From the IMG/VR virus record IMGVR_UViG_3300020171_002230, positions 1 to 25,288 of that record: a stretch of DNA of 25,288 nucleotides; one strand, 5' to 3'. Under the pieces are notes generated by a model. It did not search any database. It was given only the letters and a program-made list of their open reading frames with translations, and was not told the DNA's origin. Position 1 is the stretch's first letter. The number at the start of each line of letters is the position of its first letter. A program made the position numbers and the translations under genes. This DNA is from a virus. Positions 3,682-19,301 of this stretch are shown here, in pieces.

Positions 3682-5178
3682 ATGAACAACGACGAATTGC
3701 TCCGCCAGATAGCCGACCATACCAGCGACCCAAACTTTGTCCTCGGCTTGTCGGCCCTGCCGAACCCCGATGAGGTCTTGCGCAAGGCCGGGCTCAGTCA
3801 TCTGGTCTATGACCAGGTGATGACCGATGGCCATGTGATCAGCAAGGTCATCGACCGGCGGTCCGGTATGTTGCGGCGGGAGTGGGTTGTGGATGCCGGT
3901 GGCGATTCGGCCCTGGAGAAGCGGGCGGCGGAGCTCTGTACCCTGGCGCTGGCGGCGATGGCCGAGCATGAAGAGTATCCGCTGGAGAACAGCCTTGGCT
4001 GCCTGCAGGAAGCGGCGCTGCGCGGCCACCGGGCGCTGGAGGTTGTCTGGCAGTACAGGGACGGCAGTTGGCTGCCCGAGTTCCTGCGCGATATCCCCAA
4101 CCGGCGCTTGATCCATACCGGTATTGAATGGCGGTTGCTGACGACCGAAGATCAAGGTTACGGCGTCCCCTTCCCGGCTCGGAAGGTGTTGATGGCCACC
4201 CATATGGCCAGCACCGACAACCCTTATGGCGAGGCGCTGCTGTCCCGCTGCTACTGGCCCTACCTGTTCAAGCACAATGGCTTCAAATGGTGGGTGACGC
4301 TCGGTGAAAAATACGGCATCCCCTGGGTCATCGGCAAACTCGGCGGCAACGCCGAAGAACCCCAGCGCCGGGATTTGTTGAACAAACTGGTGGCGCTGGT
4401 GATGGACGCGGCAGCGGTTTTGCCCAAGGATGCCGAGGTCGATATTAAAGGGCTGGAGGGGGCGACCCCCGATGTCCATGCCGGGCTGATCACCGTCTGC
4501 AATGCCGAGATCAGCAAGGTCCTGGTCGGCCAGACGTTGTCCACCGAGCTTGATCAGAAAGGCGGCTCTCGGGCGGCCACCGAAACGCACAGCGAGTTGC
4601 GCGGCGAGATCGTCGAGGCCGACAGCAAGCTGGTGGCTCGGGTCATGAACCGGCTTTTCGCCTGGATCACCGAGCTCAATGTCGGGGCTCAGATAGTTTC
4701 TCCCAAGTTCAAGTGGGTGGATGAGGACGTTCCGCCCACCGCCTGGGCGGAGGTAGCCGACAAGGCCATCAAGGCTATGCCCGGCCAGGTGCCACGACGC
4801 TGGGCCTGGGAGAAGTTCGGTATCCCGGAGGAGATGGCCGGGGAAGAGATGATTCCGGTTCAGCTGGATAATGGAGTCAGCGGACAGACGACGGAACGGC
4901 CTGCGGCCTTTGCGAGGGACGATGAATTCACCGAAGAACAGCAGGCGCTTGAAACGCTCGCGGAAAAGGTAATCAAAGAGGCGGTATCGGCCCTTGCCGG
5001 TAACGAAGAGAAGATCATGGCGGCGGTGCAGGACGCATCCTCATACGAGGAGGCCATGGACAAGCTGCTGGCCCTCTATCCCGGGCTGGATGTCGTCGGA
5101 CTGGAAGAGGTACTGGCGAGGACTCTCTTAGCCGCAGATCTGTTCGGCAGACACACCGCCCAGGAGGAAAGCAAGTGA
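3682..5178 (+). CDS. Portal protein, Mu gp29-like (DUF935)
   Basis: This 498-aa protein matches the DUF935/Mu gp29 portal family in length, position and several stretches: VISKVIDRRSGMLRREW (about residues 53-69), the EVVWQYRDGSW segment (about 119-130) and WVTLGEKYGIPWVIGKL (about 206-222). Twelve copies would form the ring through which DNA enters the head and to which the tail attaches. The C-terminal 90 residues are acidic and helical, as in portals with a barrel or crown extension. The gene overlaps the MuF gene by four bases. Its ribosome binding site is modest (AGAGGG about 12 bases before ATG). Confidence 0.92.
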   Translation: MNNDELLRQIADHTSDPNFVLGLSALPNPDEVLRKAGLSHLVYDQVMTDGHVISKVIDRRSGMLRREWVVDAGGDSALEKRAAELCTLALAAMAEHEEYPLENSLGCLQEAALRGHRALEVVWQYRDGSWLPEFLRDIPNRRLIHTGIEWRLLTTEDQGYGVPFPARKVLMATHMASTDNPYGEALLSRCYWPYLFKHNGFKWWVTLGEKYGIPWVIGKLGGNAEEPQRRDLLNKLVALVMDAAAVLPKDAEVDIKGLEGATPDVHAGLITVCNAEISKVLVGQTLSTELDQKGGSRAATETHSELRGEIVEADSKLVARVMNRLFAWITELNVGAQIVSPKFKWVDEDVPPTAWAEVADKAIKAMPGQVPRRWAWEKFGIPEEMAGEEMIPVQLDNGVSGQTTERPAAFARDDEFTEEQQALETLAEKVIKEAVSALAGNEEKIMAAVQDASSYEEAMDKLLALYPGLDVVGLEEVLARTLLAADLFGRHTAQEESK

Positions 5179-6431
5179 CCGTCGCCCTCGATCCTCTGCC
5201 CATGGAGGCAGCCGCCGAGTTCTGGCGCAACAAGGTCCAGCTCGGCCCGGCAGAGTTCGCCAAAATTGCCGACGAAGCGAAGATCCGCGCCTTCGGCATC
5301 TCCGGCATCGCCAAGGGTGACGAGCTGGCCACGGTCTTCAACTCCCTGCAGGCGGCGATCGACAAAGGGATCAGCTACGGCGAATTCAAGAAAGAGTGCG
5401 CCGGGATCTTCGAGCGCCGTGGCTGGACCGGCAAGCGGGAGTGGCGGGTGCAGAACATCTTTCGCACCAACATACAGACCGCCTACAACAGCGGCCGCTA
5501 TAAGACGCAGAAGGAGAATGCCGAGGCCTTCCCCTATCTCCAGTACAACGCGGTCAATGACCGGCGGACCAGGCCGACGCATGCGGCCATGGACGGCAAG
5601 GTCTTTCCGCTCGATCATCCCTTCTGGGACACATGGTATCCGCCGAACGGCTACCGCTGCCGGTGTTCGACCCTGTCGCTCACCGGGCGGCAAATGGAGC
5701 GGATGGGCCTGAAGGTCGAGACGTCCGATCCAACCGACAGTCCGATTGAGATCCCCAACCAGGTCACCGGGGCGAAGATGACCGTGCAGCAGCTGCTGCC
5801 GGATTCGGGATTTGATCATCATCCCGGCAAGGTGGTCTGGGGCGGGATGGGCGAGTGGCGGGATCGTGGCATCTATCAGGCCATGGATGGATTGCCCGGG
5901 CCTGCCGATTATCGTCGGCGGACGCTGGCCAATGTCCAGCCAGCAAAAGTCTCGGACCTGGACGAATCGGCATTGCTGCCGACCGGCAGGGACGATGCGT
6001 TTTACAAAAGCGAGTTTGTCCAGCGGTACGGTGAGGAGACTGTCCTCCGTGATGGAGCAGGCGAGCCGGTGATAATGACCTTGCGGAGCTTCCTGGTGGA
6101 TAAGACGCCGGGTGCTGCCGAGGCATGGAAGTTTGCCAAGGGCGGGCACGGTGAGGCTATCCCCCTGTTGCAAGAGATGATCGAGACCCCGTATGAGATC
6201 TGGTTGACCCCGCAGCAGGATCGACAAACCGGGCGGGTTCGCCTGAGCAAGCGCTATGTTTCGCTCTGGAAGACTGAGGATAAAAAGACGATTGCCGGGC
6301 TGGCGGTGTTTGAGGTGGTGGACGGGGTGTTCCAGGGAGTGACGGCCTTTATCCCCATGAAAAAGGGTGGAGCCGATTTGACTTATGCCGAGCGGCAGCG
6401 GCTGGGACTGCTGCTCTATCCGAAGCGCTGA
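5175..6431 (+). CDS. MuF head morphogenesis protein with C-terminal PBECR-like nuclease domain
   Basis: A 418-aa protein starting at GTG (AGGAGG lies at 5162-5167 and no better ATG exists). Residues about 55-170 are the MuF/gp30 head morphogenesis domain: helices followed by RTNIQTAYNSGRY, the RRTRPTHAAMDG segment and the NGYRCRCS cysteine motif. Residues about 270-418 form a second domain: EMIETPYEIWL (334-344), a basic strand SKRYVSLWK (358-366), and a C-terminal RLGLLLYPKR. This pattern resembles the PBECR2 domain (phage Barnase-EndoU-ColicinE5/D-RelE-like nuclease) known to be fused to MuF proteins. MuF is a minor head protein, so the C-terminal domain may be carried in the virion. The MuF call is firm; the nuclease call is from pattern memory. 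Confidence 0.88.
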   Translation: MTVALDPLPMEAAAEFWRNKVQLGPAEFAKIADEAKIRAFGISGIAKGDELATVFNSLQAAIDKGISYGEFKKECAGIFERRGWTGKREWRVQNIFRTNIQTAYNSGRYKTQKENAEAFPYLQYNAVNDRRTRPTHAAMDGKVFPLDHPFWDTWYPPNGYRCRCSTLSLTGRQMERMGLKVETSDPTDSPIEIPNQVTGAKMTVQQLLPDSGFDHHPGKVVWGGMGEWRDRGIYQAMDGLPGPADYRRRTLANVQPAKVSDLDESALLPTGRDDAFYKSEFVQRYGEETVLRDGAGEPVIMTLRSFLVDKTPGAAEAWKFAKGGHGEAIPLLQEMIETPYEIWLTPQQDRQTGRVRLSKRYVSLWKTEDKKTIAGLAVFEVVDGVFQGVTAFIPMKKGGADLTYAERQRLGLLLYPKR

Positions 6432-8134: not shown

Positions 8135-8163
8135 AATTACGAATTACGAATTAGAAATTACGA
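8135..8163 (+). repeat. Heptamer repeat R1 (single arm)
   Basis: Tandem GAATTAC units (AATTACGAATTACGAATTAG and a diverged unit) lie between the protease stop and the decoration gene. There is no opposite arm. The sequence after it (ACAACCATTAACAAGGAG) closely resembles the leader after R2. Confidence 0.85.
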
Positions 8164-8743: not shown

Positions 8744-8812
8744 AATTATGAATTACGAATTACGAATTACGAATGAACTGCGGTTCTTTTTATAATTCTC
8801 AATTCGTAATTC
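8744..8812 (+). repeat. Heptamer palindromic repeat R2
   Basis: The left arm has four GAATTAC-type units (8744-8774) and the right arm has reverse-complement units (8793-8812, AATTCTCAATTCGTAATTC), with a short spacer. GAATTACGAATT pairs exactly with AATTCGTAATTC, so the transcript can form a hairpin between the decoration and capsid genes. The right arm is nearly identical to those of R4 and R5. Confidence 0.9.
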
Positions 8813-10687: not shown

Positions 10688-11437
10688 ATGGGAGCACCAT
10701 TTTCGTTTATAGGCGAGGCTGATGCCTACGTCGACATACTGAGCGACACCGGTGTACGCACCGGCCTGGAGCTGAAAGGCAACTGCAGCGAGTTTACGCC
10801 GAAGCCGGACGCCGAGAGGAAAGAACAAACCTCGAACGGCCGGGGCAAGACCGGTCAGGTTATCGCCTCGGTCACCCTGCCGAAGCCGATGACTTGCACC
10901 GTGAAATTCAACCAGCTCGACCAGGCGCTCTTTGCCGCCGCCTTCTTCGGGACTAACTCGATACTGACTCAAGCAGCCGGGGCTGCTGCCGAGCGGGATG
11001 TGACGACCATTGAGGATAAGTGGGTGGAGATAGGCGGGGTCATGCTGGCGTCCGCCGTGGTGACAGATCCCACCGGCTTAACCACCTACGTCCTCGGCAC
11101 CGATTATGAGCTCAATACCCGGTTGAGCATGATCAAAGCCCTGGCCACCGGGAGTATTCCGAGCGGCGAGATATGCAAGGTCACCCCCACCTATGCGGCG
11201 GTAAACGGCGTCGAGATGAAGGCGATGACCAAGAGCAACGTGCGGATCCGCGTCAAGCTCGATGGTCAGAACTTTGCCGACGGCCGTGATTTTATCACCG
11301 ACGTCTATATGATGCGCCTCAACCCGACCAGCAACTTCAGCTTCATCGGCACCGAGTTCGCCGAGGTCACCTTCGACGGCGTCCTCGAAACACCGACCGG
11401 CTTCGATGAGCCAATGAAACATACCTGGCTGAGCTGA
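10688..11437 (+). CDS. Major tail tube protein
   Basis: This 249-aa, strand-rich protein follows the terminator and precedes the chaperone, the standard slot of the tail tube protein. N-terminal FIGEADAYVDIL and KPMTCTVKFNQLDQALFAAA resemble tube proteins of transposable siphophages and related phages. Residues about 120-180 hold an inserted beta domain with the pattern YVLGTDYELNTRLSMIKAL that recurs in many virion proteins. The final part (FSFIGTEFAEVTFDGVLETP) closes the barrel. A strong AAGGAGATATC ribosome site sits just before the ATG. No sheath gene precedes it, which supports a non-contractile tail. Confidence 0.78.
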   Translation: MGAPFSFIGEADAYVDILSDTGVRTGLELKGNCSEFTPKPDAERKEQTSNGRGKTGQVIASVTLPKPMTCTVKFNQLDQALFAAAFFGTNSILTQAAGAAAERDVTTIEDKWVEIGGVMLASAVVTDPTGLTTYVLGTDYELNTRLSMIKALATGSIPSGEICKVTPTYAAVNGVEMKAMTKSNVRIRVKLDGQNFADGRDFITDVYMMRLNPTSNFSFIGTEFAEVTFDGVLETPTGFDEPMKHTWLS

Positions 11438-11448
11438 TCGGCTTAATC

Positions 11449-11473
11449 AATTACGAATTACGAATTACGAATT
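11449..11473 (+). repeat. Heptamer repeat R3 (single arm)
   Basis: Three perfect tandem GAATTAC units, AATTACGAATTACGAATTAC and on, lie in the gap between the tube and chaperone genes. There is no inverted arm. The ribosome site GGGGGATT of the next gene follows directly. Confidence 0.9.
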
Positions 11474-11484
11474 TGGGGGATTAA

Positions 11485-11853
11485 ATGCGGAAAAGCAAAA
11501 TTATCAACGTCGAAGGTCTCGGCGAAGTGACGGTAAAGGAAATCAGTCCCTTTGCCGTCTACAAAGCGATGTCATCCGGTCAAACAGGCCCGGAGCTCCT
11601 GGCCCTGGCGTTGGACTGTATCAGCCTGCCACTGGAGAAGGTGGAGCAACTCTATCCCTCCGAGCTCGAACAACTAGTCAACACCTTTATGGAGGTGAAC
11701 AGCTCTTTTTTGGCAATAGCGGCCAAGGTCGGCCTCAAGCAAACCATAACCGGCATGGTGGAGCAGCTCTCAAAAACCTTGCCGCAAGTGTTTGCCGACT
11801 CATACAAGCTGGCCATGTTGGTGCCTGGCATTACGGGTGGCACTTCTTCCTGA
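11485..11853 (+). CDS. Tail assembly chaperone, unshifted (gpG-like) form
   Basis: A 122-aa helical protein between tail tube and tape measure. It begins with a short strand region (IINVEGLGEVTVKEISPFAV, residues 6-25), then helices rich in Leu/Glu, fitting the gpG-type chaperones that coat the tape measure protein before tube assembly. Inside the gene (11706-11712) is T_TTT_TTG in the correct phase for -1 slippage, so this is the shorter of two expected products. The unshifted C-terminus ends GITGGTSS. GGGGGA precedes the ATG. Function rests on gene order and on the frameshift architecture typical for this gene. Confidence 0.8.
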   Translation: MRKSKIINVEGLGEVTVKEISPFAVYKAMSSGQTGPELLALALDCISLPLEKVEQLYPSELEQLVNTFMEVNSSFLAIAAKVGLKQTITGMVEQLSKTLPQVFADSYKLAMLVPGITGGTSS

Positions 11854-11882
11854 TCGCGCTTGAGACTTTGAACGGTAAATAG
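11485..11882 (+). CDS. Tail assembly chaperone, -1 frameshifted (gpGT-like) form
   Basis: Reading 76 codons from 11485, slipping back one base at T_TTT_TTG (11706-11712) and continuing from 11712 gives 56 further codons to TAG at 11880-11882, three bases before the tape-measure ATG. The extension begins with a Gly/His/Asn-rich linker and ends in a conserved-looking segment: LAASVCRLIQAGHVG, then WHYGWHFFLIALETLNGK. Aromatic motifs of this kind occur in T domains of tail chaperones. In lambda and most long-tailed phages the ratio of G to GT is set by such slippage. The slippery site, phase and open frame are seen directly; use of the site is inferred. Confidence 0.78.
11706..11712 (+). promoter_or_regulatory. 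Programmed -1 ribosomal frameshift site (T_TTT_TTG)
   Basis: Six T followed by G, in phase as TCT-TTT-TTG, form a canonical X_XXY_YYZ heptamer. It is the only perfect heptamer I found in the chaperone gene, and the -1 frame stays open from here to 11882. Confidence 0.78.
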
Positions 11883-11884
11883 GC

Positions 11885-14800
11885 ATGAACCCCAATAATC
11901 GCTTGGAAATGTTCCTCACCCTCAACGCTGAGGCCTTCAAAAAAGGCCTCAGCGCTGCCGGTACCGGCGTGCGCAATATGGCCGGTGGGGCCAATGCGGC
12001 CTTCTCAACGACCAAAGCCAGGCTGCAGGAAAATCTAGTTGCCGTCAAAAAATACAACGCCGAACTGCAACAACAGAGTGGTATTGTCCAGGGTTTAAAG
12101 GGCCATGTCACTGCCCTGGTCGGGGCCTACCTCGGCTTTCAGTCGATCATCGGGGTCGTCGGCTTGTTACGGTCTGCCGATTCTGCGGCCTTCTCCTTGG
12201 AGGCATCGCTGCGGGCGGCAAATCGCGAATTCACCAATATAGGCAATGCCGACTCTTGGACGGCGGCTATCGGCCGGATGGCCGGAGAGCTGCGGATATA
12301 CTCCAAGTCGGAATTGAAAACGGCAGTGGCCTCGACCATCGACATGACCAAGCGCCTCGGTTTTTCTGCCGAGCAGATGGAAGTCCTCATTAAGAGGACC
12401 GCCGACCTCAGTGCCGGTAAGACCGACCTGAATGGCGGTATCGAGCGGGTAACCGCGGCGATGCGCGGCGAAGCAGAGGCTTCTGAGTATCTGGGCCTGA
12501 CCCTGAATGAGAACTACGTCAAGGCCTGGCATGAAGCCCATAACGCTCACAACAAGGCCTGGAAAGATCTGACAGATCTGGAAAAGGCCCAGATCCGCTT
12601 CAACGTCTTTCTGGAACAGGCAACCCCCCTTACGGGCAAAGCTGCCGATTCGGTCACTACCCTGTCCGGTGCCTATGCCCTGGTCGGGGCCAATATCTTA
12701 GATGCAGTAGAAGGCAACCGGAACGCAGTTGAAGCCACCAAACAGCTGTCGACATTTATCGCCGAAAACGCCGACAAGATCGGCGAGCTCGCGACCATCC
12801 TGATCACTGCTGCCACGGCGACCATGCAGTTCGTCTTGAATAATAAAGAAGCGGTGGCGGCAGTAGGTCTCGTGGTGCTCGGTGCCGGGACTTTATCTTT
12901 TGCCATTTCTTCGCTGACCACGGTATGGCGGGCGCTGAATGTGGTGATGCTGGCGACTACAGGCCAGCAGTTTGGTCCTTGGGCGGCATCAACAGTCACC
13001 GCTATCAAGTCGGTCAATCTGGGGGCGATGACGCTTAAGACCACGATGGGGGCACTCGCAGGATTGCTGCTGGCCTGGGAGGCAGGCAAGTGGTTTGGCG
13101 GACTCATCGGCCAGATCGACATTGTGCAGACGGCCATGGTGGGCCTGATCCACAAAGCCGATCAAGCGCGCCTGGCTGCTCAAAAGATGTGGGCGCAGCT
13201 CACCGGCTCGGATGCGGATGTCAAGGCCATTGATGACAAAATCGCTATCAGCAACACAGTCTATAAAGAGATGCTTGCCGATATCAAGGCTGGCAAGGGC
13301 GCAGGGGAGAAGAAAAACACCGCGCCGGAGAAGCAGCCGGAAGCCCCTGAAAACCCTAAACAATCCGACACTCCGGATGCGCAGAAAAAAGCTGATGTCG
13401 GTTACCGCACCCCTGAATATCTCGATCAGCTTGATGAGGCGGTCTTGTCGCCGGAGGAATTGGAGGACCGCAAGAAGCGCTGGGCCGAACGGGAGCAGCA
13501 AGAAAAGCAGCTTAACGACGAGAAGAACACCAGGCTTGACGATGTGGCCAAGGCCAACGCCGAGAAAGATGGCAAGCGGGAGAAGATCAGGCAGGCGGAC
13601 CACAACCGCAAGGTTGATCCGAATAGCTCTAATTACGACCGAGAATATGCGAAAAACTATGCGGCAAAGCAGCGGAGAATTGCGGCTGAAAAGGCGGCAG
13701 AAGAGGCCCGCAAACATCCGCCACAAAGACAAGGAGAACAACAGTTATCCGAGGTAGAGCCGGAGGAAGAACCAGAAAATGACCGGGAGACAGAGGCCGG
13801 CAAGAAGTCGAAAAAGGTGATATCCAGATCCGGTGGATCTGCCGGGGCCAGCCTGATCAGCGAAGAGATCAAGGAGATCGAGACCGAACGCAAGGCCGAG
13901 CGCAAAGAGTTGTTCCAGGGCATGGCCACCCTCGACCATATCGACCAGATGAACGCACAGGTCGATATGGCTGCCGCCTCCAAATATGCAGCCAAGGCCT
14001 CTGAGCGCAAGCGGCAAATATTCGACGCGCTCCAATCTGAAAACGAGCGCAACCGGCAGGCCGAGGAAGACGCCGCCGCCAAGGGCGAAACAGTTGTCAC
14101 CAAGCGGGCGACGGCTACATATGATCCGGCCATTGCCGCCCTGGAGGCCGCAGCCAAAGAGAACGAGTTGCGGGCCAAGCAGATGAAGTCCGGGACATTG
14201 TCGGCAATGGCGAAGAGCCTCGCAAATGTGGAGGCCGAGCGCCAGGCGTTCGCCAAGGGTGCAGAGGCCAAGAAGGCGCAGATCGAGGCGGATCAGGTTG
14301 CGGCAGAAAAAGAGTATCAGACCAAGCTGCGCCTGGCTGAGCTGGACAAAGGCCTGCACGAAGAGGCGGTTAAACGCAACGAAGATCTGGCCGAGTCGGC
14401 TGAACAATCCGCCGCCGCGCGGATCAAGGCCGAAGAGGACGCCACCGGTAAGGCCAAGTCTGTATTTGAAAAATATGCCGCCCGCGTCAAGGAGTTGCAG
14501 GACGAGATCGCAGGTCGTGAGCGCTCCCTGGCCGACGAACTGAGCGACCTTGATCCCCATGCCACCGAGGAGCAGCGCTGGCGAAGAAAGGCCAAGGCCG
14601 CCGCCGATTACGAAAAAGCAGCCAAGGCAGCCATGGCAGCCGGTAGGCTCGATGAAGCCAGAGAATACGCCGATCAGGCCAAGACCACCTACGCCGGGCT
14701 GAAAGACGGCAGCGGCCGGATCAGCGACAAGCTCGCCGGTCGCACCGCCTTCTCCGGGGTCAGCTCTGCCGGCAACCTGGGCCTGGCGATCAGCAAGATG

Positions 14801-15046
14801 ATGACCGATGCCGCCGGCAAGGCCGCAAAATCAGGGCTTATGGGGATTGATGGACTAAACACCCGTATTTCATCGCAGTTACAGAAGGCCATGGGCGCCC
14901 TGGCCGATGCCGCCCCTACCGGACCCGGCAAACAGCAAGCGGCGCAGGTGCATGAGATCCGCCTGGGGAATGCCAGGTTGCAGGGCTCGCCGAACGATGT
15001 AGCTGATTTTATCAAGCAGTTGGAACTGGCGGGGATGCGCGCATGA
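11885..15046 (+). CDS. Tail tape measure protein
   Basis: This 1053-aa protein is the longest head-to-tail spacer gene before the tail-tip genes. The N-terminus, RLEMFLTLNAEAFKKGLSAA, is typical for tape measures. Three hydrophobic stretches follow (about residues 60-90, 310-345 and 375-405), then some 450 residues rich in Glu, Lys, Ala and Arg that read as long coiled coil (about 430-880). The C-terminus ends in a helical region with SPNDVADFIKQLELAGMRA. It sets tail length and may help DNA cross the inner membrane. At the usual rule of about 0.15 nm per residue the tail would be near 150-160 nm. Start-site ribosome signal is weak (AAATAGG), consistent with coupling to the frameshifted chaperone stop. 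Confidence 0.9.
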   Translation: MNPNNRLEMFLTLNAEAFKKGLSAAGTGVRNMAGGANAAFSTTKARLQENLVAVKKYNAELQQQSGIVQGLKGHVTALVGAYLGFQSIIGVVGLLRSADSAAFSLEASLRAANREFTNIGNADSWTAAIGRMAGELRIYSKSELKTAVASTIDMTKRLGFSAEQMEVLIKRTADLSAGKTDLNGGIERVTAAMRGEAEASEYLGLTLNENYVKAWHEAHNAHNKAWKDLTDLEKAQIRFNVFLEQATPLTGKAADSVTTLSGAYALVGANILDAVEGNRNAVEATKQLSTFIAENADKIGELATILITAATATMQFVLNNKEAVAAVGLVVLGAGTLSFAISSLTTVWRALNVVMLATTGQQFGPWAASTVTAIKSVNLGAMTLKTTMGALAGLLLAWEAGKWFGGLIGQIDIVQTAMVGLIHKADQARLAAQKMWAQLTGSDADVKAIDDKIAISNTVYKEMLADIKAGKGAGEKKNTAPEKQPEAPENPKQSDTPDAQKKADVGYRTPEYLDQLDEAVLSPEELEDRKKRWAEREQQEKQLNDEKNTRLDDVAKANAEKDGKREKIRQADHNRKVDPNSSNYDREYAKNYAAKQRRIAAEKAAEEARKHPPQRQGEQQLSEVEPEEEPENDRETEAGKKSKKVISRSGGSAGASLISEEIKEIETERKAERKELFQGMATLDHIDQMNAQVDMAAASKYAAKASERKRQIFDALQSENERNRQAEEDAAAKGETVVTKRATATYDPAIAALEAAAKENELRAKQMKSGTLSAMAKSLANVEAERQAFAKGAEAKKAQIEADQVAAEKEYQTKLRLAELDKGLHEEAVKRNEDLAESAEQSAAARIKAEEDATGKAKSVFEKYAARVKELQDEIAGRERSLADELSDLDPHATEEQRWRRKAKAAADYEKAAKAAMAAGRLDEAREYADQAKTTYAGLKDGSGRISDKLAGRTAFSGVSSAGNLGLAISKMMTDAAGKAAKSGLMGIDGLNTRISSQLQKAMGALADAAPTGPGKQQAAQVHEIRLGNARLQGSPNDVADFIKQLELAGMRA

Positions 15047-15445: not shown

Positions 15446-15520
15446 AATTACGAATTACAAATTACGAATTACGAGGTCGTTTCCTTTAATTCGTAATTCG
15501 TAATTCTCAATTCGTAATTC
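15446..15520 (+). repeat. Heptamer palindromic repeat R4
   Basis: The left arm (15446-15474) has GAATTAC units, with one variant CAAATTAC; the spacer is GGTCGTTTCCTTT; the right arm (15488-15520) has the reverse complement. The stem AATTACGAATTACGA pairs with TCGTAATTCGTAATT, giving a long hairpin. It is followed by CAGCGAACAAAGAGAGCGACA, almost the same leader as after R5. Confidence 0.92.
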
Positions 15521-19227: not shown

Positions 19228-19301
19228 AATTACGAATTACGAATTACGAATTACGAGGTTTTGCCTTTAATTCGTAATTCGTAATTCAAAATTCGTAATT
19301 C
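19228..19301 (+). repeat. Heptamer palindromic repeat R5
   Basis: The most perfect copy: four GAATTAC units in the left arm (19228-19256), spacer GGTTTTGCCTTT, and right arm 19269-19301, reverse-complementary to it. It is followed by CAGCGAACGAAGAGAGCGAC, which is also the leader and weak ribosome site of the next gene. Confidence 0.93.

Follow-up and report, generated by a model that had tools for sequence, protein, structure and literature searches.

The stretch of DNA analysed here (hereafter the window; 25,288 nucleotides) derives from a prophage with Mu-like head genes, members of the portal, gpF and gp36 families among them, and a tail operon of the long non-contractile type. A match to the phage capsid-E family (PF03864) was obtained for the capsid protein, and the Mu gpF-like protein (5175-6431) has a PBECR2 nuclease-like domain at its C terminus (PF18810, E 9.3e-19). 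Between the genes of the major tail protein and the presumed tape measure lies a gene in which a second open frame is, very probably, reached by a programmed -1 frameshift of the lambda G/GT type. The features concerned are the following.

10688-11437, plus strand: major tail (tube) protein, Ig-like, directly upstream of the chaperone gene (phrog_807, E 1.6e-36)
11485-11853, plus strand: zero-frame chaperone (G-like protein), 122 aa, based on the ORF, PHROG matches and predicted fold
11691-11696, plus strand: Shine-Dalgarno (SD)-like GGAGGT, putative 5' frameshift stimulator, 9 nt before the heptamer
11706-11712, plus strand: slippery heptamer T_TTT_TTG, in phase, with the T run conserved in homologues and phage F10
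11712-11882, plus strand: -1 frame extension (T-like), 56 codons and TAG, an open frame conserved in homologues
11712-11774, plus strand: linker segment of the extension (residues 1-21), for the most part under zero-frame constraint judging by substitution periodicity
11775-11879, plus strand: conserved extension core, NLAASVCRLIQAGHVGAWHYGWHFFLIALETLNGK, with -1-frame periodicity that continues beyond the zero-frame stop
11885-15046, plus strand: presumed tape-measure protein, 1053 aa, directly downstream, based on length and position

The tape-measure ORF has no match in Pfam or PHROG, and we therefore name it from its size and from synteny with phages F10 and D3112. The zero-frame protein, which runs from ATG 11485 to TGA 11851-11853, weakly matches phrog_1442, a tail assembly chaperone family (E 0.0094); six of 20 family members match the same PHROG (best 3.5e-6), and all 20 match the unnamed phrog_7608. 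A phrog_7608 search of relatives was empty, as were its controls, and is thus uninformative, and a PDB sequence search with the zero-frame profile returned nothing. When the predicted model (mean pLDDT 74) was compared with 130 chains, all of which scored below Z 8, the top three were 3klu (YqbN; Z 5.7, 3.1 A over 75), 2ob9 (Z 4.4, 4.3 A over 71; the tail assembly chaperone of phage HK97) and 3fgx (Z 3.1, a score shared with an unrelated lectin); YqbN and 3fgx are tail-chaperone relatives as well. Foldseek against 2ob9 gave E 0.41, and several of the leading BFVD hits are labelled as tail assembly chaperones. These scores are modest, and the predicted fold is best called chaperone-like.

The first T of the heptamer TTTTTTG occupies codon position 3 (TCT TTT TTG), which places the heptamer in the X_XXY_YYZ phase required for tandem slippage, as the first-pass annotation had claimed. 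The -1 frame starts with GGC at 11712, remains open for 56 codons and ends at TAG 11880-11882; it includes RLIQAGHVG and WHYGWHFFLIALETLNGK, again in agreement with that annotation, which had, however, counted three bases from the TAG to the tape-measure ATG at 11885, whereas the gap is two bases (GC). The predicted fusion has 76 + 56 = 132 aa. From a single sequence such a site and frame prove little, since TTTTTTG occurs 10 times on the two strands of the window versus 2.3 expected, and the -1 frame stays open to the zero-frame stop in 41% of codon shuffles of this sequence alone. The latter figure is what might be expected if conservation of the zero-frame protein had left the -1 frame open by chance and nothing were made from it, and it is the homologues that decide the matter.

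Homologues were drawn from viral contigs, a single genome contig and a set of related genomes, and 21 non-redundant sequences, chosen as those carrying the T run, were used; one homologue that reaches as far without the run (L033) was left out. An in-phase TTTTTT(G/A/C) is present at the equivalent codon in all of the sequences used (21/21). Given the amino acids and codon usage, the joint probability of the T run in the 21 is ~1e-32, a naive value that ignores shared descent, and because the homologues are related, the true probability is less extreme. L033 retains the extension motif and has no T run at the usual place, the only in-phase candidate being A_AAC_CCT; conversely, L032 has the heptamer and lacks the -1 motif, and its zero-frame tail looks disordered or frame-disrupted. 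The isolated phages were reached via distant family members, a tblastn search of them with the window's own zero-frame protein having given no match. Four distant homologues (L027, L028, L030 and L031) possess a longer -1 extension of 74-122 codons with an extra C-terminal segment. Phages PCA1, MuM16-1 and ACPWH encode a related tube protein, and no more than 66-119 nt separate its gene from that of the tape measure (L008 4669-4736, L009 4717-4837 and L010 4759-4851), so no chaperone gene is present at that place.

Is the -1 frame itself under selection? It is open past the zero-frame stop in 20 of the 21 homologues (mean 5.1, maximum 11 in 2000 synonymous randomisations that do not model shared descent), and the GH..YG core motif is encoded in 19 of 21 (mean 1.8, maximum 6 in 2000 synonymous randomisations). 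Because the randomisations ignore shared descent and identity in the +1 frame is also high (0.42 vs 0.476 in the -1 frame), the identity-based dual-coding test is taken as support only, and the argument rests on periodicity and stop counts. Within the overlap, the alignment of 13 close homologues shows 28 stops in the +1 frame and none in the -1 frame. Pairwise differences among the same number of close homologues, sorted by codon position, follow the zero frame upstream of the slip site (0.357, 0.249 and 0.551 at positions 1-3) and still do so in the first part of the extension. From extension residue 22 onwards, the third position of the -1 codons becomes the freest, both within the overlap (0.198, 0.205, 0.318) and past the zero-frame stop (0.327, 0.369, 0.607), and synonymous differences in the zero frame drop from 0.478 upstream to 0.216 within the core of the extension. 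Since the periodicity switches at residue 22, we place the conserved domain at ~11775-11879 and regard the preceding residues as a linker read from zero-frame sequence; -1 identity is 0.70 in the core versus 0.23 in the linker.

The zero-frame constraint on the linker is also what an open frame left by chance would show. Across the homologues, however, the stops, the motif and the periodicity contradict this explanation, the conservation runs on beyond the zero-frame stop, and phage F10 keeps the core despite a much earlier zero-frame stop, which makes a by-product without a product extremely unlikely. The codon-level conservation that the first-pass annotation had proposed as a check is thus found, with periodicity, stops and motif in agreement, and its central claim of a tail chaperone with -1 slippage and a real extension product is supported by gene position, heptamer, -1-frame conservation and the chaperone-like fold. 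The extension frame is open and, judged by these substitution patterns, subject to protein-coding selection.

A further reading is a -1 domain translated separately from an internal start, to which the SD-like element might in principle bring ribosomes. In none of 20 homologues does the -1 frame offer an ATG, GTG or TTG from the slip site to the core, and the sole candidate in the window is TTG 11868, near the extension end; a fusion is therefore the simplest route. The change of frame might alternatively reflect a sequencing error or a decayed gene, but the same arrangement occurs in independent assemblies and isolated phages, which excludes sequencing error. We give almost no credence to either version, internal start or damaged frame, and retain the frameshift fusion.

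Another important question is what would promote slippage at this site. The anti-SD pairing energy has its minimum at offset -17, with a mean of -9.5 kcal/mol in the 21 homologues (profile mean -1.45, sd 1.56); no 16S rRNA was detectable in the assembly, and the standard anti-SD was therefore assumed for the host. The minimum is partly a consequence of the conserved Glu-Val-Asn. Nevertheless, among the 20 sequences that retain Glu, 19 encode it as GAG, versus 56% in the other genes, an excess with a probability of ~1e-4 by our own arithmetic if the sequences are treated as independent. By analogy, GGAGGT probably acts as a stimulator of slippage here. A downstream RNA structure was considered for the same role and rejected, being no better than shuffles: a search limited to pseudoknot-free folds detected neither a stable nor a conserved 3' structure in 20 homologues (mean z -0.89 and -0.78) or in the window itself (z 0.0 and -0.7; separate estimate -0.40), and an Rfam scan of 11400-12000 gave chance-level matches only.

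In E. coli dnaX, A_AAA_AAG is accompanied by an upstream Shine-Dalgarno-like stimulator and a 3' hairpin (PMC3711429). The tandem heptamer with an SD-like element ~10 nt upstream recurs here as GGAGGT with a 9-nt spacer, whereas the 3' stem-loop of dnaX has no conserved counterpart, and the signal thus resembles the 5' half of the dnaX cassette. This arrangement also bears on whether the fusion might arise through RNA polymerase slippage on the T run, a possibility to which the six-T run in every homologue used lends itself. Bacterial transcriptional slippage has been described on runs of nine A or T (PMC5009743), but here the run ends at six, every homologue used preserves the tandem phase, and the SD-like element stands at a fixed spacing, features that make sense only for ribosomes. 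We consider slippage by the polymerase very unlikely and prefer ribosomal frameshifting.

The lambda G/GT system goes back to reports by Levin (1993) and Xu (2004, 2013) that PMC5009743 cites. As here, the lambda gene lies between tube and tape measure and yields one chaperone in a short and a -1-extended form. Slippage in lambda takes place at GGGAAAG, 5 codons short of the end of G, and appends 144 codons, in contrast to the T_TTT_TTG in the window, which is located 46 codons before the zero-frame stop and adds 56, so that most of the extension is dual-coded; lambda also has no SD-like element at the corresponding spacing. The lambda tape measure is the binding partner of G, both free and within GT, and the tube protein that of T, with a ratio of short form to fusion of about 30:1 (PMC5009743), and two tail-chaperone frameshifts assayed by others reach 6-7% (PMC3711429).

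In the proposed model, most ribosomes would produce the 122-aa zero-frame chaperone, and a minority, probably retained at the site through base pairing between 16S rRNA and the internal GGAGGT, would slip back one base on T_TTT_TTG and produce the fusion of the first 76 residues with the 56-residue -1 segment, whose conserved core is predicted to be helical. A division of labour like that of lambda is most likely by analogy: many copies of the short form would coat the tape measure, and a few fusions would recruit tube subunits via the -1 domain. Slippage, its rate and these binding roles are inferred. The chaperone family may further represent a compact, dual-coded variant of the lambda arrangement, in which the G:GT ratio is set by an SD-like 5' stimulator and the heptamer without a 3' structure and nearly the whole extension domain is packed inside the end of the zero-frame gene; we rate the chances of this broader proposal as even.

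Close isolated relatives include the tail chaperones of Pseudomonas phages F10, MD8 and LESphi2, with a homologous zero frame and extension, T_TTT_TTC, and an SD-like AGAGGTGA at the same offset as GGAGGT in the window; they differ in that the zero-frame stop lies 13 codons past the slip site. F10, which was held out of profile building, is matched by the zero-frame profile at E 6e-17 and by the extension profile at E 2.6e-11, and in the records of all three phages only the zero frame is annotated. The D3112/PaMx73 group shares the Mu-like head, the long flexible tail and a -1 extension ending ahead of the tape measure, but the zero-frame and extension profiles match it marginally (E 0.012 and 0.19), and a strong SD-like element is lacking. 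For the Mu-like siphophage PaMx73, T_TTT_TTC ~43 codons before the zero-frame stop was published in 2014 (PMC4378225), and the D3112 sequence shows such a site directly. Phage P2 E/E+E', compared here by its published description, likewise has a T6G slippery sequence (PMC3931495) but possesses a contractile tail, and its E' overlaps E by a mere 37 nt.

No homology to lambda T is recognisable in the extension. The extension profile has no significant match to lambda T (best E 0.17) or to the D3112 extension, and a fold search with the extension model yielded nothing meaningful. The first-pass annotation had described aromatic clusters typical of T domains; an aromatic motif does define the extension in this family, but the wording "typical T domain" is unsupported.

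Programmed frameshifting is described as general among tail chaperones (Xu 2004, as related in papers citing it), and the present case is an unusually well-supported further example of a well-known lambda trick, not a new kind. It stands out by an SD-like element that is conserved and by an overlap that is almost complete. The view that a Mu-like background with a lambda-type G/GT arrangement is informative for tail evolution was overstated, as the D3112/PaMx73 group has already been reported to combine Mu-like heads, lambda-style tails and a T_TTT_TTC tail frameshift (PMC4378225), and little new is added on that point; the general picture of tail assembly is unchanged. The analysis adds a missed protein product to a prophage family and to public phages such as F10, and the extension motif together with the heptamer allows others to find and annotate such fusions. 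The SD-like element at fixed spacing offers a simple testable case of setting tail-chaperone ratios without RNA structure.

Two repeat features were also observed around the gene. Five intergenic gaps of the late operon are filled by 7-nt AATTACG repeats (8135-8157, 8744-8811, 11449-11471, 15446-15519 and 19228-19300), the third of which directly precedes the chaperone gene, and three of the five form strong hairpins (-23 to -34 kcal/mol). Eight of the 18 genome-wide exact matches to AATTACGAATTACGAATT are located on this contig, and none was found in the other fetched loci. Just past the frameshift gene, at the start of the tape-measure gene, an inverted repeat (11918-11962) has 20-nt arms that are 85% complementary and a 5-nt loop.
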